Assembly: GCF_000425145.1 (NCBI RefSeq)
Contig: NZ_AULF01000006.1
Location: 1-64,000 of the forward strand
Direction of reading: 5' to 3'
Length of the DNA stretch: 64,000 bases
Source: Pedobacter glucosidilyticus DSM 23534
GTDB taxonomy: Bacteria; Bacteroidota; Bacteroidia; Sphingobacteriales; Sphingobacteriaceae
Both the position numbers and the translations under genes were made by a program. Position 1 is the stretch's first letter. Each line of letters starts with the position of its first letter. This document shows, piece after piece, positions 27,302 through 37,996 of the stretch. The notes beneath the pieces were generated by a model that was not told where the DNA came from, searched no databases, and saw only the letters and a list, made by a program, of their open reading frames with translations.

Positions 27302-28870
27302 CTATTGTTTTTCCTTTAAGGTAATGATAACAACTCCATTCTTACCTTGCTCGCCATATTTATCTGTAGCACTTTTATCTTTCAAGACTTCTATTTTATC
27401 GATATTTTCTGGCTTAAGTTTTTTCATCTCTTCTTCCGATATTGCTTTTCCATTTAGCATAAATTGAGGTTTAGGACTATTATCTGTTAGATTAAAAGAA
27501 ATTGGTACAGTAAAGCTTACCCTAACAGTTTTTCCATTTTGTTGACCTGGCTCCCAGTTTGGCGAAAGTTTTATAACTCTTAAAGCTTCTTCATCCAATT
27601 CTTTACTTACACCTCTTAAAATTTTAGCATCACTTAAAGAACCATCTTTCTCTACAACAAAATTTACTATAACCCTTCCTTCTGTTTTTTTTGCTTTCGC
27701 TTCTGCTGGATATTTAATATTTCCAACAAGAAAATCTGTAAATTTTTGATGCCCACCTTTGAACATTGGCAAAACATCAACTTTAGTTAAAACATCCTTT
27801 TTACCTTCTTGCGCAACAATATTTATTTCTTTTGATATTGGAGCTTCTAAAGCAAGGTCCTTTTTTGCTGTATCTATACCATAAGCAGCTTCCTTTTCAT
27901 CAAAATCAGCTATAGTTTTAGAGTTTGACTCTAGCTGCTCTGCTTTACTCTTATACAACGTAGTTTCTTTAAAAGTAGGAATCAAGGTTTGAACTGATTC
28001 TTGAATTTCTATTTCATCAGCAACATTGTTTAATGTTTTATTTTCATTGATTGTAGCAGAAGATAATATCAATGCTAATAGAAATAATGGTGCAGACAAA
28101 CCATACTTTAGAATGGCTACTTTTCTTGATTTTTGTTTTTGTAACATCTTGATTCTCCTTTTTAATAAAGACTGGTTAAAAAATGTGTTGGTTAATTTAT
28201 GTGGATTTATACCGAAACTTTTGCTAAAGATTAACAATGCATAATCTGCTTTACTCGTTTCAGATTGCACAACTACCTCATCAGCAATAAATTCATGAAT
28301 TTGTTTTATAGCGTTTTTATAGAAATATACTATGGGGTTAAACCAATTTATGATGCTGATGATTTCAAAAAATAAGACATCTGCAGAATGTAATTGCTTA
28401 GCATGTATTAACTCATGTTTTAGGATAATATCTTTCTGAGGAAGGCGCTCATCTATTTTAATTCTAAAAAAAAATGAAAATGCCTGCTCACGGTTGTTAG
28501 AATTTAAAAGAACTCGCACTTTTAAAAGTCTATAAAGAAGTCTTGTAAAGAATAATAAAACTCCTGCTAAATAAATAAAAGAAACCATATCACTTAAAGT
28601 GTGATTTGGTGTTGTCAATGGTGTGGCAAAACTTTCTGAAATTGTCAAATAAACGCCTGTCCATCCGGTTTCTACCTTATCGTTCATAAAAAAATTGCGA
28701 ATCCATTCGAGGTAAAACAATGGGATACACATAGAAAGCAAAGCCGAGCCTAAAAGATAAATCCTGTTAAGCTGAAAAAAGGTTTCATTTCTTAAAAATA
28801 AGAAGTAAAATCCGTAAAACAACATCAAGTAAATGTTGATTTGAATGAGGTAGTTTGCCCAGTTCATCAT
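27302..28870 (-). CDS. BlaR1-type M56 metallopeptidase with TonB C-terminal domain
   Basis: A 522-residue membrane sensor-protease. N-terminal membrane helices, zinc site HELIH at residues 152-156 (LKHELIHAKQLHS), further helix APLFLLALILSS, a periplasmic linker, a TonB-C-like domain (about 365-455: KYPAEAKAKKTEGRVIVNFVVEKDGSLSDAKI in part) and a final plug-like tail KIEVLKDKSATDKYGEQG..GVVIITL. Family logic: an envelope signal triggers cleavage of the BlaI repressor encoded just upstream (ATGA overlap). No beta-lactamase is nearby; the Bacteroidota version probably senses envelope or TonB-linked cues. Confidence 0.9.
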   Translation of the reverse strand: MMNWANYLIQINIYLMLFYGFYFLFLRNETFFQLNRIYLLGSALLSMCIPLFYLEWIRNFFMNDKVETGWTGVYLTISESFATPLTTPNHTLSDMVSFIYLAGVLLFFTRLLYRLLKVRVLLNSNNREQAFSFFFRIKIDERLPQKDIILKHELIHAKQLHSADVLFFEIISIINWFNPIVYFYKNAIKQIHEFIADEVVVQSETSKADYALLIFSKSFGINPHKLTNTFFNQSLLKRRIKMLQKQKSRKVAILKYGLSAPLFLLALILSSATINENKTLNNVADEIEIQESVQTLIPTFKETTLYKSKAEQLESNSKTIADFDEKEAAYGIDTAKKDLALEAPISKEINIVAQEGKKDVLTKVDVLPMFKGGHQKFTDFLVGNIKYPAEAKAKKTEGRVIVNFVVEKDGSLSDAKILRGVSKELDEEALRVIKLSPNWEPGQQNGKTVRVSFTVPISFNLTDNSPKPQFMLNGKAISEEEMKKLKPENIDKIEVLKDKSATDKYGEQGKNGVVIITLKEKQ

Positions 28871-29247
28871 TTATTGGTTTTAAGTTTTTCAATAAGTTTT
28901 AATATCTCATCTGCTTCTTTAACATCAATTTTTTGTTTCTTCACAAAGAAAGAAAACATGCTCTCTACAGAATTTTCAAAATATCCATTCAGTAGTTTAT
29001 CAGTTGCATAGTTTTTATACTCCTCTTTTGTGATAGCAGGTAAATACTGGTGACTTTTACCAAAAGCCTGATGTTTAACAAAGCCTTTAGTTTCTAAAAT
29101 CCTGATGATAGTAGACACTGTATTATAAGCAGGCTTAGGTTCTGGCAAATGCGCTATCACATCTTTAACAAAACCTTGCTGTATTTCCCATATCACCTGC
29201 ATGATTTGTTCTTCTGCTTTTGTTAACTCTTTAAATTCCTTTTCCAT
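28867..29247 (-). CDS. BlaI/MecI-family transcriptional repressor
   Basis: A 126-residue winged-helix regulator (LTKAEEQIMQVIWEIQQGFVKDVI, PAYNTVSTIIRILETKGFVKHQ is the DNA-recognition region, AITKEEYKNYATDKLL the start of the dimerisation helices). It is the partner of the M56 protease, whose start overlaps its stop. Regulation: a double-dyad operator lies 31-66 bp upstream of the ATG, fitting autorepression relieved by M56-dependent cleavage. Confidence 0.93.
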   Translation of the reverse strand: MEKEFKELTKAEEQIMQVIWEIQQGFVKDVIAHLPEPKPAYNTVSTIIRILETKGFVKHQAFGKSHQYLPAITKEEYKNYATDKLLNGYFENSVESMFSFFVKKQKIDVKEADEILKLIEKLKTNK

Positions 29248-30812: not shown

Positions 30813-32243
30813 ATGAAAAAAATACTAATCGTTGATGATGAAGTTAACATTGGACTACTTCTCTCTAAATTCCTATCAAGAAACGGTTTTGAGATAAAGA
30901 CTGCAACTTCAGGAACTTCAGCATTTGATATCCTCAGTAAAGAAACCTTTAACCTAGTACTTTGCGATTTTAGGTTAGAAGATACAGATGGAAGAGAAGT
31001 ATTAAAAAAAATCAAATTACTTTATCCTAGAACAGGTGTTATCATCATCACCGGTTATTCTGATATAAAATTAGCTGTAGAACTTATTAAAATGGGTGCT
31101 TATGATTATATCACAAAGCCACTTTATCCTGATGAGATTTTAAACACCATCAATAAAGCCATTGAAACTCAGCAAGCTTTAAATGAGGAATTAGACAATC
31201 CTACACCTGTTACTACTGAAACCTCTAAATCAAAGGAACCTAAAAAAATTTCGGGAGGTTTTGATGAATATGTAATAGGACAAAGCTCTGCAGCTAAAGA
31301 ATTAATGAGGCAAATAGAACTTGTAGCCCCTACCAATTATAGCGTTATTTTAATTGGAGAAAGCGGAACGGGTAAAGAGTCTGTAGCTAAAAGCATCCAC
31401 ATGAAAAGTAATAGAAGAGATAAGCCTTTTATTGCCATGGATTGCGGTTCTTTAACCAAAGAGTTAGCAGGTTCAGAATTTTTTGGACACGAAAAAGGTT
31501 CTTTCACAGGTGCGTTATACACCAAAATTGGTCATTTTGAAATGGCAAATGGAGGCACTTTATTTTTAGATGAAGTGGGAAACCTTTCCTATGAAATACA
31601 AGCCGCCTTATTAAGAACTGTACAAGAAAGAAAAGTAAAAAGAATTGGCTCTACAAAAGAAATAGATTTAGACGTAAGAATCATAGTAGCTACCAATGAA
31701 AACTTAATTGATGCTATAGCTAAAGGTAAATTTAGAGAAGATTTATACCACAGATTTAATGAGTTTGGTATTTATATGCCTCCTTTAAGAGAAAGAGGCA
31801 AAGATATACTCATTTTTGCTGAACACTTTTTAAGTGCCGCCAATGCAGAACTTAATCGTGATGTTAAAGGTTTTAGTGAAGAGGTAGAAGAATGTATTCT
31901 TACCTACACCTGGCCAGGCAACGTAAGAGAGCTTAAAAATGTGATGCGAAGAGCTGTTTTACTAACAGAAGGAGACTATATTTTACTTAAAGCTTTACCG
32001 CTAGAAATATCCACTTTTACAAAGTTATCAGCACTAGAAAATATTTTAGATAAACCAGCAGGTGGCGGAGAAGGTAGAAGAGAAAGAAAACTCGACTTAA
32101 AAAATGCTGCCTTAGAAGCTGAATACGAAACCATATTAAAAGTACTTAAGGAAGTAAATTTTAACAAAACCAAAGCTGCTAAACTTTTAAATATTGATAG
32201 GAAAACGCTTTATAATAAAATGAAAGCCATTAATCTAGAATAA
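30813..32243 (+). CDS. Sigma-54-dependent response regulator (NtrC family)
   Basis: A 476-residue activator: receiver domain (residues 1-120, acceptor Asp52 in LVLCDFRLED, Lys in ITKPLYPDE), AAA+ domain with Walker A IGESGTGKES, the sigma-54 contact loop written GSFTGA instead of GAFTGA (a tolerated variant), GGTLFLDEVGNLS Walker B and R-finger region FREDLYHRFNEF, then a Fis-type HTH (KTKAAKLLNIDRKTLYNKM). Activates RpoN promoters when phosphorylated. First gene of a four-gene phosphorelay; its stop abuts the next start. Confidence 0.95.
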   Translation: MKKILIVDDEVNIGLLLSKFLSRNGFEIKTATSGTSAFDILSKETFNLVLCDFRLEDTDGREVLKKIKLLYPRTGVIIITGYSDIKLAVELIKMGAYDYITKPLYPDEILNTINKAIETQQALNEELDNPTPVTTETSKSKEPKKISGGFDEYVIGQSSAAKELMRQIELVAPTNYSVILIGESGTGKESVAKSIHMKSNRRDKPFIAMDCGSLTKELAGSEFFGHEKGSFTGALYTKIGHFEMANGGTLFLDEVGNLSYEIQAALLRTVQERKVKRIGSTKEIDLDVRIIVATNENLIDAIAKGKFREDLYHRFNEFGIYMPPLRERGKDILIFAEHFLSAANAELNRDVKGFSEEVEECILTYTWPGNVRELKNVMRRAVLLTEGDYILLKALPLEISTFTKLSALENILDKPAGGGEGRRERKLDLKNAALEAEYETILKVLKEVNFNKTKAAKLLNIDRKTLYNKMKAINLE

Positions 32244-35057
32244 ATGTTTAAAATTAACCTCTCATTTTTAAAATCTAGAAAAGGGTTTGATATTCCTATT
32301 CCCTATTTTCTTGCGGTTTTTACTTTATGTATCATCCCGTTTGTACTCTCGGTATTGCAACTAGATATTAATTTGCTGGGTTATCATATCATCTCTTTTG
32401 AAAACAATCAAAATTTTAAAAATATTCAATTAGGCAAAGCCTTTAACACTGCTTGGATTTTATTTAGCGTTGCAACAGGTATTTTTACTTGCATTTTAAC
32501 ACTTATTGATTTTAAAGTTAAAAAAGATATATCCGCCCCTATCATTGGGTTGGTTTTAATAAGTACAGCTATCATAGACCTTTTACACCTTTTGGTTGCA
32601 GCAAATCTTATTAAATTATCTATCAATTATAACGAAGCTTTATATGTTACCTGGTTTGCAAGCAGGTTATTACAGGTTGTATTACTAATTTTAGGTACTA
32701 GCTTAATTCTAACCATTAAAACAAAAACCATTAGAAAATTAGAACAAAAAGCTAAACTATTACAATTATTAGCACTCTTGTTTGCGGTTATAACTATTCT
32801 GGTTATTTGCTATTTATTCACTTTAACATCAGTATCAAACTATTTTATTTCAACAAGTTCTTTTCTTATACACCCAACAGAATTATTCATCATAGGGTTG
32901 TTTTTTTTATGGGGCTCTGTTATCATGCCTAATGTTATAAAAGCAAATCCAAGTATTTTTTCTCAACTTTTAGTTTTAAGCATGATACCTGCAATTTTTG
33001 CAGCTGTACACATGTCTATTGCTGCCTTTCCTTTTGATGCTAACTATAATGTAGCGCAGTTTCTAAGGCTAATTACTTATTTTATCCCTTTAACTGGTAT
33101 TAGCTTAAACTATTCTAGAAGTATTTCTAAACAACATCAAATCAATTTAAAACTGGATAGAGAAATTCAAGAAAAGAAAAAAATACAGCAAGACTTAGAA
33201 AGCAGACAAAATTTATTAAAATATGCCGAGTCTATGGCAAATATGGGTAGCTGGGAGATACAAATAGCTACTGATAAAATGATGTGGTCTGATGCTCTTT
33301 ATGATGTCTTAAATTTGCATCCTCTAAAAACAAAACCCACCATACAGGCTATTCTTTATTTGCTACAAGAAACTGATAAAAGCAATTTTTTACAAACTTT
33401 AGAAAACTGTAAGAAAAAGCATGGCTCTTTTCAATTAGAGTATCAAATATTAGATAAAAAAACAGAAAAACTACGCTTTTTACAAATAAAAGGGCAATAT
33501 ATCCAAACGGAAAATAAAATTATAGGAACTATTTTAGATGTTACTAAACTTAAAGAAGCAACTTTTAAACTAGAACAAAATGAAGCTATTTTAAAAGAAG
33601 CAGAATCTATCTCTCATAACGGAAGTTTTGAATGGAATGAAAGTACAAACGACATCTTTTGGTCTGATGAGCTTTACAGAATACATGGTTTAGACCCTGA
33701 AAATATAAAACTAGATTTTGGATTTTATCAAACATTAATCCATCCCGAAGACCTTGAGCGTTGCAAATCTGTCATTGAAAAAGCCTATAATCTAAAGCGT
33801 AATTTTGTTATCGAGTATCGTGTAATTAGACCTAATAAGGAAGTAAGATTTTTATACGGAACAGCAAAAATTATTACAGATGATAAAACACCTTTAACTA
33901 AAGTTTTAGGTACCATACAAGATATTACTGAGCTTAAAAATACTGCTATCTTACTAGAAAAAACAGAAAGTATTTATAAGACTATTGCTAAAAATGTTCC
34001 AGACTCGGCCGTTATTATGTTTGATAAGGATTATAAACTCATCCTATTAGATGGCCCAATAGTAAAAGATTTAAATTTTAAAACACAACCCATCATTGGC
34101 ATTTCTGTAAAAGATTTATATCATGATGATTTTGCAGAAAAAATCAAAAAATCTCTTGACAAAGCCTTTTCAGGTCTTGAAATTTCTTTTGAAAAAGAAG
34201 AAAATAATAGATTTTATAAAATAGACTATGTGCCTGTTAAAAACATTGCCGGAGAGATTTTTAGCGTTATGGTAGTTAAACACGATATTTCGGAGATTAA
34301 AGCTACCCAAAAAGATTTAGAGTCTAAAGTAGAAGAATTAAATAGGTCTAACCAAGATTTAGAGCAATTTGCCTACGTAGCCTCTCATGATTTACAAGAA
34401 CCTTTAAGAAAAATTAGAGCCTTTGGAGATCGTCTTCAAAATAAATATGCTCAAGAAATTTCTGAAGAAGGCTTAGATTATATCAAAAGAATGCAAAACG
34501 CATCTGAAAGGATGCAGATACTTATAGATGATTTACTAACCTATTCTAGAGTAACGCGTGGAGACGAAGGCTTTATCCAGGTAGATTTATATGAGCAAAT
34601 TCAAATGACATTAGAAAATTTAGAATATGCCATTGAAAAAAAGGGTGTAACTATAGATATTATGGTAAATCATGCTGTAAAAGGTATTCCAAGCTTAATA
34701 AGACAGCTTTTCCAAAACCTATTTAGCAATGCCATTAAATTTAGTAAAGAAAATGTTAAACCTGTTATAGAAGTAAAATCAGAAATTATAAACGGAATTT
34801 CACTAAAACTACCTGGCATTTATCCTCATAAAGATTATTGTGTAATTAAAATAAAAGATAATGGTATTGGTTTTAACCCTGAATATGCCGATAAAATTTT
34901 TGCACTCTTTCAAAGGCTTCATACCAGAAATGAATATGAAGGAACAGGCATAGGCTTAGCCGTTTGTAAAAAAATAGTGGAAAAACACGAAGGCTTTATA
35001 CTTGCAGATAGCAAGCCTGATGAAGGAACCATTTTTACCATTATATTACCTTATTAA
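32244..35057 (+). CDS. Membrane PAS-domain sensor histidine kinase
   Basis: A 937-residue kinase. Roughly residues 1-290 form a multi-helix membrane module (about eight helices, MASE3-like, e.g. AIIDLLHLLVAANLIKLS), followed by three PAS segments (about 325-430, 445-555, 565-680), a coiled coil, the phospho-acceptor His715 in FAYVASHDLQEPLRKI, and an HATPase domain (QNLFSNAIKFSKEN, IKDNGIGFNPEYADKIF, EGTGIGLAVCKKIVEKHEG). Stimulus unknown; the membrane part suggests a lipophilic or membrane signal. Starts at the base after the sigma-54 regulator stop. Confidence 0.93.
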   Translation: MFKINLSFLKSRKGFDIPIPYFLAVFTLCIIPFVLSVLQLDINLLGYHIISFENNQNFKNIQLGKAFNTAWILFSVATGIFTCILTLIDFKVKKDISAPIIGLVLISTAIIDLLHLLVAANLIKLSINYNEALYVTWFASRLLQVVLLILGTSLILTIKTKTIRKLEQKAKLLQLLALLFAVITILVICYLFTLTSVSNYFISTSSFLIHPTELFIIGLFFLWGSVIMPNVIKANPSIFSQLLVLSMIPAIFAAVHMSIAAFPFDANYNVAQFLRLITYFIPLTGISLNYSRSISKQHQINLKLDREIQEKKKIQQDLESRQNLLKYAESMANMGSWEIQIATDKMMWSDALYDVLNLHPLKTKPTIQAILYLLQETDKSNFLQTLENCKKKHGSFQLEYQILDKKTEKLRFLQIKGQYIQTENKIIGTILDVTKLKEATFKLEQNEAILKEAESISHNGSFEWNESTNDIFWSDELYRIHGLDPENIKLDFGFYQTLIHPEDLERCKSVIEKAYNLKRNFVIEYRVIRPNKEVRFLYGTAKIITDDKTPLTKVLGTIQDITELKNTAILLEKTESIYKTIAKNVPDSAVIMFDKDYKLILLDGPIVKDLNFKTQPIIGISVKDLYHDDFAEKIKKSLDKAFSGLEISFEKEENNRFYKIDYVPVKNIAGEIFSVMVVKHDISEIKATQKDLESKVEELNRSNQDLEQFAYVASHDLQEPLRKIRAFGDRLQNKYAQEISEEGLDYIKRMQNASERMQILIDDLLTYSRVTRGDEGFIQVDLYEQIQMTLENLEYAIEKKGVTIDIMVNHAVKGIPSLIRQLFQNLFSNAIKFSKENVKPVIEVKSEIINGISLKLPGIYPHKDYCVIKIKDNGIGFNPEYADKIFALFQRLHTRNEYEGTGIGLAVCKKIVEKHEGFILADSKPDEGTIFTIILPY

Positions 35058-35062
35058 TTTAA

Positions 35063-35470
35063 ATGAGTAAAGAAAATATAAGCAATGCTATTTGGATTGT
35101 TGAAGACGACCCAGATGATAGATTGATGCTAAAAGAGGCATTTAAAGAGTTTAATTATATCAAACCTTTGGTGTTTTTTGAAGATGGAGAGAAGATTATT
35201 GAAATTCTTAAAAAAAAGCGTCATAAGCCAAGGCCAAATCTTATTCTTCTTGATTTAAATATGCCCAAGATTAATGGCCACCAAGTATTAGCCTTTATCA
35301 AAGAGCATGAAAAAACAAAAAATATACCGGTAGTAATTTTTACGACCTCCAGAAGTGAACAAGAAAAAACAGATAGTTTAAAAATGGGCGCTAGTGATTT
35401 CATCACTAAACCTTACAAGTTTAACGAAATGCTTAAAATAGCCGGAGATTTAATAAAATCATACGGATAA
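35063..35470 (+). CDS. Single-domain response regulator (Rcp1-like)
   Basis: A 135-residue receiver without an output domain. Acidic pocket WIVEDDPDDRLML, phospho-acceptor Asp64 in LILLDLNMPKINGHQVL, Thr/Ser in VVIFTTSRSE and Lys in ASDFITKPYKFNEM. Such proteins shuttle phosphate between kinases or act by protein binding. It lies 5 bp after the membrane kinase gene and 11 bp before the receiver-PAS-kinase gene. Confidence 0.94.
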   Translation: MSKENISNAIWIVEDDPDDRLMLKEAFKEFNYIKPLVFFEDGEKIIEILKKKRHKPRPNLILLDLNMPKINGHQVLAFIKEHEKTKNIPVVIFTTSRSEQEKTDSLKMGASDFITKPYKFNEMLKIAGDLIKSYG

Positions 35471-35481
35471 TATATAATAAT

Positions 35482-36942
35482 ATGAAAGCTGTAAAAGTAT
35501 TATTAATAGATGATGATGAGGATGATTATATCCTTACCAAAGAAATATTTAACGATATCCCACAAAAGGAAATTTATAGCCTAAGCTGGATAAATAACTA
35601 CGAAGAAGGCATTAATGCCATGCTTAAAAGTCATTATGATATTTATTTGGTTGATTATCGATTGGGTAAATATACAGGATTAGATCTTTTAAAAGAGGCT
35701 ATCAAATCAAACGTTGGAGAACCCATCATCATTTTAACTGGTAAAGGAGATTCTAAAGTAGACGATGAAGCACTTCAAATAGGTGCAGCAGATTATCTTA
35801 TTAAAGATAAAATAGACCCTTATACCATAGAGCGCTCTATACGTTATGCTTTAAAGCACACTTTCACCCTAAAAGCACTAAAAGAAAGTGAAAATAAATT
35901 TAAGATTATTTTTGAGCGCTCTAAAGAACCATTTTTAATTATAGACTCACTGGGTACTATTAGAGATATTAATGAGGCTGGATTAAAATTCTTTAAATAT
36001 ACCCGAGAAGAACTAAGTCTTATTAAAGGAGCAGATTTATATGCAAACCGCAAAGACAACGCCTTATTTGTACAGCTTATGGATGAAAAAGGCTCAACTC
36101 ATGATTTTGAGACTCAATTGATTACCAAAAATAAAGAGTTAAAAACAGTAGCTATCTCTGCATTTTTACAAATAGACCAACACGCTACAGAAGAACTTTA
36201 TTATTGTATTGTGCATGATATAACCAATAGGAAAAAAGAAGAAAAAACTATTGTTGATATGGAGAAGCTTGCAGTAACAGAAAGAATAGTTAAAGGCTTG
36301 TCCAATGAGATTAGAAATCCATTATCAAATATTAATTTATCACTAGAACAACTTAAGTTAGATTTAAACACCAATGATGAAACTATAAATCTTTACTTAA
36401 ACATTATAAAAACCAATTTTGATAAAATAAATCTATTGGTTTCTAATCTAGTAAGCTCAACCCAAAACAGAGAACTTAATATCCAAACCAAAGTATTAAA
36501 CCACATACTTGAAGAGGTCATCATCAAAACCGAAGATCAATTAAACAACAATCTATTAAAAATTGATAAAGAGTTTAACACAACAGATATTACTATTGAT
36601 GTTGACGAAGAACAAGTTATACAAGCTATACAAAATGTTTTCATAAACGCTGTTGAGGCGGGGGCTAACTATATTACTGTAAAAACAGAAACTCACAACA
36701 ACGAAATACAAATTTTAATTACAGACAATGGTTCTGGCGTAGCCGTAGAAGATCAAAAAAGAATTTTTGAACCTTTTTATAGCTCAAAACCTAAAAGTTT
36801 GGGAATGGGCTTAGCTAACGCTCAAAAAATCTTAATTAATCATAAAGGGAAAATAAACTTAGATAAAAGTTCAAACCAAGGTTCTACTTTCTCTATATAT
36901 ATTCCTATAAGCAATCAGATTCATTTATGGAATTCTTTATAA
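35482..36942 (+). CDS. Receiver-PAS-kinase hybrid lacking the phospho-acceptor His
   Basis: A 486-residue soluble protein: N-terminal receiver (acidic LLIDDDEDDYILT, Asp58 in IYLVDYRLGKYTG, Lys in AADYLIKDK), a PAS domain (about 140-255), then a HisKA-like helix reading KGLSNEIRNPLSNINLSLEQ where the H of the usual H-E-x-R-N-P-L box is Asn275 (codon AAT at 36304-36306). The ATPase half keeps its motifs: N box VFINAVEAGA, G1 ITDNGSGV, F box FEPFYSSKP, G2 LGMGLANAQ. So ATP binding looks intact but autophosphorylation at the normal site is not possible. Could be a pseudokinase, regulator or phosphatase in the relay. Confidence 0.9.
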   Translation: MKAVKVLLIDDDEDDYILTKEIFNDIPQKEIYSLSWINNYEEGINAMLKSHYDIYLVDYRLGKYTGLDLLKEAIKSNVGEPIIILTGKGDSKVDDEALQIGAADYLIKDKIDPYTIERSIRYALKHTFTLKALKESENKFKIIFERSKEPFLIIDSLGTIRDINEAGLKFFKYTREELSLIKGADLYANRKDNALFVQLMDEKGSTHDFETQLITKNKELKTVAISAFLQIDQHATEELYYCIVHDITNRKKEEKTIVDMEKLAVTERIVKGLSNEIRNPLSNINLSLEQLKLDLNTNDETINLYLNIIKTNFDKINLLVSNLVSSTQNRELNIQTKVLNHILEEVIIKTEDQLNNNLLKIDKEFNTTDITIDVDEEQVIQAIQNVFINAVEAGANYITVKTETHNNEIQILITDNGSGVAVEDQKRIFEPFYSSKPKSLGMGLANAQKILINHKGKINLDKSSNQGSTFSIYIPISNQIHLWNSL

Positions 36943-37009: not shown

Positions 37010-37996
37010 ATGAGAAAAAACATTAAATTTTTTTTAGCATTAACGCTATTTGTGTCTAGCACAACGCTAACCTTTGCACAGGAAACAACTAACTCTACAG
37101 CTAAAACTTTTGGTGGCAGAGACCAATATAGAACTTGGTCTGTAGGTATTCATGGTGGAGCTTTAACTCCAGTAGTACTTATTGGTGGTTCAGACGATTA
37201 TACCAACTGGGATGCTAATTTTGGTTATGGCATTAGCTTAAATAAACAAGTTGCACATGCTTTTAGCTTGCAATTAAACGCAGTATTTGGTACTCTATCT
37301 GGTAATAATGCTGATGCCCCAGGAGGAAGAATAGGTGATTACAGATCTTTTGATACCCAAATTGGTTTCGGTATTGATTTAAGAGGAGTAGCTAATGTTG
37401 CAACTATTGATTTCTTAAAAAGAGAAAATGCTTTAAATTTTAACATTTCTACTGGTATGGGTACTTTAGCTTACGCACCAAGCTATATCAACCAAGCAAA
37501 TGCTTTGGTTGATTGGAAAGGCAGAGCAGGCTCTTCTGGAGACAAAGACTTTATTAAAAGTGTTTATATTCCTGTAGGTGTTGGTGCAAAATTTAAAGTT
37601 TCAGAAGTTGTTAGTTTTAACATCGGTTATACCATGAACTTCTTAGATGCAGATAATTTAGACGCTACTTACGGAAAAGAAAACTCAAAAGATAAATTTT
37701 CTTACACACATGCAGGTTTAGAATTTGCACTAGGTTCTAAAACAAAACCAAATTTAACTTGGGCAAACCCAGTAGCAACTATGTATGATGAGCTTAAAGA
37801 CTCTACTTTACGTGAGGACGTTAATAAATTAAAAGATCGTACAACTAAAGCAGAACAAGATGTGCAAGATCTTAAAAAAGATAGCGATGGTGATGGTGTT
37901 GCAGATCATTTAGATAAATGTCCTAATACTCCTGCGGGTACTAAAGTAGATGGCTCTGGTTGCGCTTTAGTAATACCTCAAGCAAAAGCACAGTAA
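37010..37996 (+). CDS. Outer-membrane beta-barrel protein with a thrombospondin-3 repeat, no OmpA domain
   Basis: A 328-residue outer-membrane protein: signal peptide ending near LTFAQ, a barrel region (VGIHGGALTPVVLIGG, VSFNIGYTMNF), a short coiled coil (DELKDSTLREDVNKLKDRT) and one calcium-binding type-3 repeat DSDGDGVADHLDKCPNTPAG followed by TKVDGSGCALVIP. Relatives normally continue into an OmpA peptidoglycan-binding domain; here a stop follows within 10 residues and a terminator lies beyond, so that domain is absent rather than frameshifted. Confidence 0.87.
   Translation: MRKNIKFFLALTLFVSSTTLTFAQETTNSTAKTFGGRDQYRTWSVGIHGGALTPVVLIGGSDDYTNWDANFGYGISLNKQVAHAFSLQLNAVFGTLSGNNADAPGGRIGDYRSFDTQIGFGIDLRGVANVATIDFLKRENALNFNISTGMGTLAYAPSYINQANALVDWKGRAGSSGDKDFIKSVYIPVGVGAKFKVSEVVSFNIGYTMNFLDADNLDATYGKENSKDKFSYTHAGLEFALGSKTKPNLTWANPVATMYDELKDSTLREDVNKLKDRTTKAEQDVQDLKKDSDGDGVADHLDKCPNTPAGTKVDGSGCALVIPQAKAQ

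Follow-up and report, generated by a model that had tools for sequence, protein, structure and literature searches.

A clade-wide histidine pseudokinase beside an NtrC-like activator in Pedobacter glucosidilyticus and its relatives

In the window, i.e., the whole stretch of 64,000 nucleotides analysed here, an operon headed by an NtrC-like activator (gene B) also encodes a protein with the domains of a histidine kinase in which Asn is found at the position of the phospho-acceptor His (gene E). The question raised by this locus is what such a protein could do for the regulator beside it. To our knowledge, only few histidine pseudokinases are understood. No report of the gene E family, or of the free hairpins described below, was found among the titles and abstract openings of the papers listed on pseudo-histidine kinases, free DHp proteins, Pedobacter/NtrC and Spo0B/ChpT, most subscription papers being outside that search. 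The genes and domains concerned are the following.

30813..32243, + strand: gene B, NtrC-like sigma-54 activator with an intact receiver (Pfam, NCBIfam)
32244..35057, + strand: gene C, membrane histidine kinase with PAS domains and an intact His (Pfam)
35063..35470, + strand: gene D, single-domain receiver (Pfam)
35482..36942, + strand: gene E, receiver-PAS-DHp-CA histidine pseudokinase, 486 aa (translation, Pfam, AlphaFold2 model)
35482..35817, + strand: receiver domain of gene E, residues about 1-112, with D58, acidic pocket, T86 and K108 present (Pfam, alignment, AlphaFold2)
35920..36219, + strand: PAS domain of gene E, residues about 147-246 (Pfam, AlphaFold2)
36223..36462, + strand: DHp helical hairpin of gene E, residues 248-327 in the model (AlphaFold2, dN/dS)
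36304..36306, + strand: codon AAT, Asn275, at the position of the phospho-acceptor His (translation)
36484..36915, + strand: CA (ATPase) domain of gene E, residues about 335-478, missing in some relatives (Pfam, alignment, AlphaFold2)

The translation of gene E gives an H box of N275-E-I-R-N-P-L, which confirms the Asn noted in a preliminary description of this DNA, and the receiver D58 and the N box (N385, N389), G1 (D415, G417, G419), F box and G2 (G441, G443) of the ATP site were all present, as had also been stated there. Of the features of a catalytic HisKA kinase, gene E has the CA domain with these four boxes and lacks the phospho-acceptor His. Pfam matched the receiver (residues 6-109), PAS_9 (149-248), HisKA (268-323) and HATPase_c (375-476), the HisKA score of 26.7 bits lying slightly below the cut-off of 26.9 bits. 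In the AlphaFold2 model (25-row alignment; mean pLDDT 84.9, pTM 0.44) the receiver is followed by a long helix (113-146), the PAS domain, the two DHp helices (248-293 and 299-327), the first of which holds Asn275, and the CA domain from residue 335; a fold search with the whole protein returned low TM-scores, which show the kinase fold and nothing beyond it. All 45 HisKA matches of the same genome were read, and His was found in 44 of them, with gene E as the sole exception. A substitute His elsewhere in the DHp was rejected, as the sequence of residues 248-327 contains none.

Matches to gene E were found in 34 of 201 family genomes (at 1e-60), in 12 of 18 genomes of the window genus (at 1e-40) and in 23 of 395 genomes from the class (at 1e-60), and orthologues were taken from these and from a scan of named genome contigs, of which the best 80 of 499 loci were used; among these best 80, the close named relatives were Pedobacter glucosidilyticus (99.6% aa), P. 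puniceum (86%) and a Pseudopedobacter (61%). The 95 distinct ORFs, minus two broken ones, gave a tree of 93 rows, for which the His column was masked. Excluded from it were 30 cyanobacterial loci (all with His), 9 duplicates, repeat loci of the same genomes, the broken copies L018 and L019, and L104, whose H box lies in no single frame; L208, L224 and L225 were added later and are absent from the tree. His was missing in all 40 tree rows of the gene E clade and present in all 53 rows outside it, and the 40 His-less rows made up one side of a single branch with an SH-aLRT of 100, in a tree of the 'quick' kind that carries SH-aLRT support alone and a long-branch warning. At the level of the sequences, a single loss of the phospho-acceptor His in the ancestor of the gene E clade is thereby demonstrated. 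The clade covers seven genus-level groups, including the window genus, Pedobacter and others.

The residue at the His position varies within the clade (Glu in 21 rows, Asn in 11, Asp in 4, Lys in 2, Leu in 1 and Arg in 1), with a minimum of 10 letter changes on the tree, and the alignment of the His-less rows is anchored by Pro at H+5 (40/40) and Glu at H+1 (38/40). A sequencing error was rejected because the copies of P. glucosidilyticus UBA7667 (L038, 99.6% aa) and P. puniceum (L039, 86% identical) also carry Asn, and the alignment of orthologous H boxes, which had been proposed as a check, showed that the gene is not a point-mutation outlier. Rows with His also occur in the same family, i.e., in genus g8 (L155, L156), where the gene order with ntrC is unchanged, in g24, where a membrane kinase and a receiver lie upstream and the contig begins there, and in g5, at another locus.

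Comparison of the sequences shows gene E to be under purifying selection. Between the window and P. puniceum, dN/dS was roughly 0.061 for the whole gene and 0.028 for gene B; among the four domains of gene E it was lowest in the DHp (0.014, residues 256-330), followed by REC (0.025) and PAS (0.063), and highest in the CA (0.099), for which it rose to 0.25 in another pair of the genus (L142/L140). For the whole gene, eight of nine pairs gave 0.022-0.063, dS being saturated in the ninth, and the least divergent pair (L041/L046, dS 0.76) gave 0.034; these ratios are rough because dS, at 0.76 to 2.7 or saturated, was mostly >1. The gene is labelled a pseudokinase because the loss of His is clade-wide and the gene is maintained, and it combines a histidine kinase fold, a replaced His and a maintained gene in the manner of the histidine pseudokinases of the DivL kind. 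This assignment, which the preliminary description had offered as one of several options, is well supported.

Gene E follows genes B, C and D with intergenic gaps of 0, 5 and 11 bases along the operon. This order recurs in the window genus and also in Pedobacter, where D is partly missing. Gene B has a receiver-AAA-Fis layout according to Pfam, and D52, T80 and K102 of its receiver together with GxFTGA were retained in all 74 rows. The best curated NCBIfam models were AtoC, ZraR and NtrC for gene B and AtoS and ZraS for the PAS-DHp-CA part of gene E, with NtrB within the best 25, all of them below their cut-offs. Gene E differs from these kinases in lying far under the equivalog cut-offs (170.3 vs 646 bits for AtoS, 113.2 vs 479 for ZraS and 70.4 vs 240 for NtrB), in having no His and in carrying an extra receiver. 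In Chitinophagales (e.g., L063, L065, L066) a His-bearing E directly adjoins ntrC, and at L157, L163, L208, L224 and L225 gene E adjoins ntrC with neither C nor D detected. In g5 (two loci read, L311 and L312) ntrC is directly followed by a 930-aa MASE3-PAS protein with an E-type His-bearing transmitter, which is closer to that of E (37%, 1e-54) than to that of C (25%, 3e-11). Over the first 300 residues, this protein resembles C (26%, 3e-36); by these matches it is a natural fusion linking the sensor of C, the transmitter of E and ntrC. The MASE3 match of gene C in the window itself was below the cut-off (23.4 vs 31 bits). The NtrC-like activator, which the preliminary description had not proposed as partner, is likely the ancestral and present partner of gene E, and a more likely one than the single receiver or the membrane kinase.

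Several further observations were made around the operon. The length of gene C between ntrC and the pseudokinase ranges from about 430 to 950 aa across genera, as if the sensor part were often swapped. At L147 (G108), genes C, D and E are each split over frames and the ntrC before them and the outer-membrane and AI2E genes after them stay open; judging from this locus, these three genes may disappear together. Downstream of gene E in the window, positions 37010-37996 (+ strand) encode a predicted outer-membrane protein that ends shortly past a thrombospondin type 3 repeat and in which Pfam found no OmpA domain. At 27302-29247 (- strand), adjoining genes resemble, by eye, a BlaR1/M56-type membrane protein with a TonB-like tail and a BlaI/MecI-like repressor.

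A different form of the same module was found in a sister lineage. In a scan of 90 loci, all 34 ntrC loci of g15 and all three of g3 had a free DHp hairpin just downstream of ntrC, an ORF of 62-76 aa whose start lies between -11 and +18 bases relative to the ntrC stop, vs none of the 53 other loci, which include repeats of one genome. The search pattern demanded His and Asn at H+4, every g15 and g3 locus passed it, and all 37 hairpins keep both residues; one more, the 38th, occurs in G141, where the adjacent ntrC is split (hairpin loci: L211, L212, L220, L226-L259 and L313). The small ORF matches the DHp model alone. Among the ORFs of the collected loci, the 70 best rows for a model of the hairpin were E-family members scoring 32-49 bits, the first protein outside the family reached 13.3 bits, and a hairpin query against the window genome had the DHp of gene E as its sole match at 1e-6 (40%, 3.7e-8). 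In the tree of gene B, a single group (97) unites the three hairpin rows and stands beside, not within, the 50 rows holding His-less genes (85). The other side of one branch (95) consists of the 20 rows with His-bearing full kinases. Among the pairs listed, dN/dS of the hairpin was 0.095-0.85 in 17 pairs with dS of 0.6-1.2, which is weak evidence. Because of the tree of B and the DHp matches, the hairpin looks like the remainder of gene E's ancestral kinase, kept with its His. It might serve as a minimal protein for phosphotransfer or dephosphorylation that derives from a kinase.

Taken tentatively, and with somewhat more doubt than belief, these data could mean that the kinase partnering one conserved NtrC-like activator gave up its kinase role in opposite ways in two sister lineages, all domains being kept and His lost in that of the window, and only the free His-bearing hairpin being kept in the other. 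If this were true, docking of the DHp hairpin on the activator would be the selected function, and gene E would be an anti-activator resembling NifL that originated within a two-component system. The free hairpins would then represent a minimal class, perhaps the smallest one, of phosphotransfer or phosphatase proteins derived from kinases.

Based on the results of this study, gene E is best explained as a Rec-controlled histidine pseudokinase that arose from the AtoS/ZraS/NtrB-type cognate kinase of the adjacent NtrC-like activator and now serves as a non-catalytic docking regulator, a reading that we believe about as much as we doubt. Because His was lost in the ancestor of the clade, gene E would be unable to autophosphorylate at the usual site or to pass phosphate from there. 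The membrane kinase of the operon would phosphorylate the receiver of gene E at D58, either directly or via the single-domain receiver, and this would reshape the PAS-linker-DHp dimer. The four-helix bundle of the DHp would dock on the receiver of the NtrC-like activator and hold or release it according to phosphorylation state, analogous to NifL holding NifA or DivL binding DivK~P. The ATP site, where retained, might act as a nucleotide-controlled lock, not as a source of phosphate, and phosphatase action on the phosphorylated NtrC-like activator would be one form that this docking could take. Altogether the data suggest that gene E regulates its neighbour by contact and not by phosphorylation. 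Against pure docking, N389, D415, G417 and G441 of the CA are invariant in all 36 His-less rows that possess this domain, and docking does not need them; the first N-box Asn (N385) is kept in 18 of these 36 rows vs 53/53 rows with His. Also against the docking reading, gene E is dispensable, none of its domains is always kept, and dN/dS is highest in the CA.

It is rather unlikely that gene E serves as a dedicated phosphatase acting on the NtrC-like activator or on the single receiver; in that case the DHp would dock on the phosphorylated receiver and N279 (H+4) would position the attacking water with no His needed. The H139N form of NtrB (NRII) is reportedly a precedent for phosphatase action without His. 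At H+4, the 40 His-less rows have Asn in 25, Asp in 13 and Ser or Thr in one each; Asn is found in all 10 tree rows of the window genus (Asp in the broken copy L019, which is not in the tree), as it is in all 37 free hairpins of the sister lineage. Together with the Glu at H+1 this corresponds to E/DxxT/N, given as the HisKA phosphatase motif in PMC5727384; the Asn speaks for a phosphatase and the 15 rows with another residue against it. According to the same text, however, His itself participates in the HisKA phosphatase reaction and the H260A mutant of HK853 had diminished phosphatase activity, and DivL, which has Tyr for His, is described in PMC4211667 as showing no such activity and stabilising the phosphate of its partner. 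The earlier suggestion of a phosphatase for the neighbouring receivers is thus weakened by the HK853 result and by an H+4 Asn in only 25 of 40 rows, and retains as its support the constancy of this Asn in the window genus.

The possibility that gene E is a relic on its way out, with catalysis gone, stepwise decay and no present function in most species, appears improbable. Judged from gene content, gene E is dispensable in relatives: gene B is present in 128 of the 201 family genomes (1e-150) vs 34 for gene E (1e-60, a threshold at which short forms are missed). Among 20 loci chosen for B without E at 1e-60, 13 were without an E-type gene, three had a shortened E, three had only a free hairpin, and at the remaining one (L207) the contig ends inside C, too early to judge. 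An E-type gene after ntrC was absent from all seven Pedobacter (g14) loci, which were chosen for lacking E; AI2E directly follows ntrC in all five g21 genomes read, and two of the 12 copies in the window genus are broken (G108, G065). Six loci without CA (L157, L158 and L159 of g20, L163 of g2, L208 of g25 and L148 of the window genus) have an E frame that stops between residues 320 and 331 in window numbering, where DHp helix 2 ends, and at L148 (G065) remnants of the CA, with stops, lie downstream of the shortened frame. Since the frame ends there in six loci, the stretch retained most often is REC-PAS-DHp, which speaks for docking. None of the domains is retained throughout, because two g20 loci (L224, L225) stop at residue 248-257, after the PAS, and have no DHp, and the receiver Asp is Ser in g2 (L163). 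The broken copies, the missing CA, the g14 and g21 loci and the six different residues at the His position would fit a relic. They are opposed by the low whole-gene dN/dS, by the Asp, Thr and Lys of the receiver (D58, T86, K108), each retained in 39 of the 40 His-less rows, by the four invariant residues of the ATP site, and by the spread of the His-less clade over seven genus-level groups.

Heterodimerisation of gene E with the membrane kinase of the operon, altering the activity of the latter in the style of RetS-GacS, is very improbable: the two share an operon and such heterodimeric control does exist according to a review (PMC12189002), but the 35 matches of gene E in its own genome do not include the membrane kinase, and gene E persists without a detected C at L157, L163 and L208, so this proposal of the preliminary description is poorly supported. 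Continued catalysis by gene E, using a different acceptor or acting in trans on a second DHp, would agree with the invariant ATP-site residues and is hardly credible given that residues 248-327 hold no other His, half of the rows have lost the first N-box Asn, and some lineages have no CA.

The interest of this locus lies in a phospho-acceptor that was lost once and in the intermediates that still exist next to the one NtrC-like regulator: orthologues that have His and an unchanged gene order, pseudokinases of full length, forms without the ATPase domain, a stub of receiver and PAS, and the free hairpins with His. A comparison along this series would reveal the role of a kinase for its regulator once phosphorylation is impossible, and which part is kept by selection, i.e., ATP binding, docking or dephosphorylation.

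Among known systems, ChpT and Spo0B share with the free hairpins a DHp hairpin with His. ChpT does not autophosphorylate, as stated in PMC3433190; it has an atypical CA-like domain, whereas the free hairpins, at 62-76 aa in total, have none. LvrB of Leptospira, presented in PMC13269768 as the prototype Rec-controlled histidine kinase, has an N-terminal receiver that drives the DHp-CA module, and its structure (8vc9) was among the sequence and fold matches of gene E, in which a predicted phosphorylatable N-terminal receiver is likewise joined to DHp-CA. LvrB is Rec-DHp-CA with no PAS and an active His161, whereas gene E has a PAS in between and has lost the His.

DivL of Caulobacter is not known to have an N-terminal receiver. 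It resembles gene E in its PAS-DHp-CA arrangement and in a residue other than His at the acceptor position. According to PMC4211667, DivL has neither kinase nor phosphatase activity and binds DivK~P, i.e., it docks to a receiver instead of carrying out phosphotransfer, and the same is proposed for gene E. DivL acts on CckA, whereas the neighbour of gene E is an NtrC-like activator; moreover, in the gene E family the residue at the His position varies and the CA is lost in some relatives.

NifL, the anti-activator of NifA in Azotobacter vinelandii, is described in PMC11509896 and PMC12540587 as NtrB-like, as neither kinase nor phosphatase, and as binding the sigma-54 activator NifA; its likeness to gene E lies in PAS joined to an NtrB-like module without kinase or phosphatase function and in a sigma-54 activator as partner. 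The NtrB-like module of gene E is also encoded beside a sigma-54 activator, in the same operon with two genes between, and the NifL-NifA complex (9qq6) was at rank 19 of the gene E fold search (TM 0.30). NifL begins with a pair of PAS domains and lacks a receiver, whereas gene E has a receiver and one PAS; NifA is described with a GAF domain, whereas gene B retains a receiver predicted to be phosphorylatable. Gene E was rejected as a NifL proper on account of this receiver and single PAS and of a partner with the layout receiver-AAA-Fis, and by analogy it may nevertheless work like NifL.
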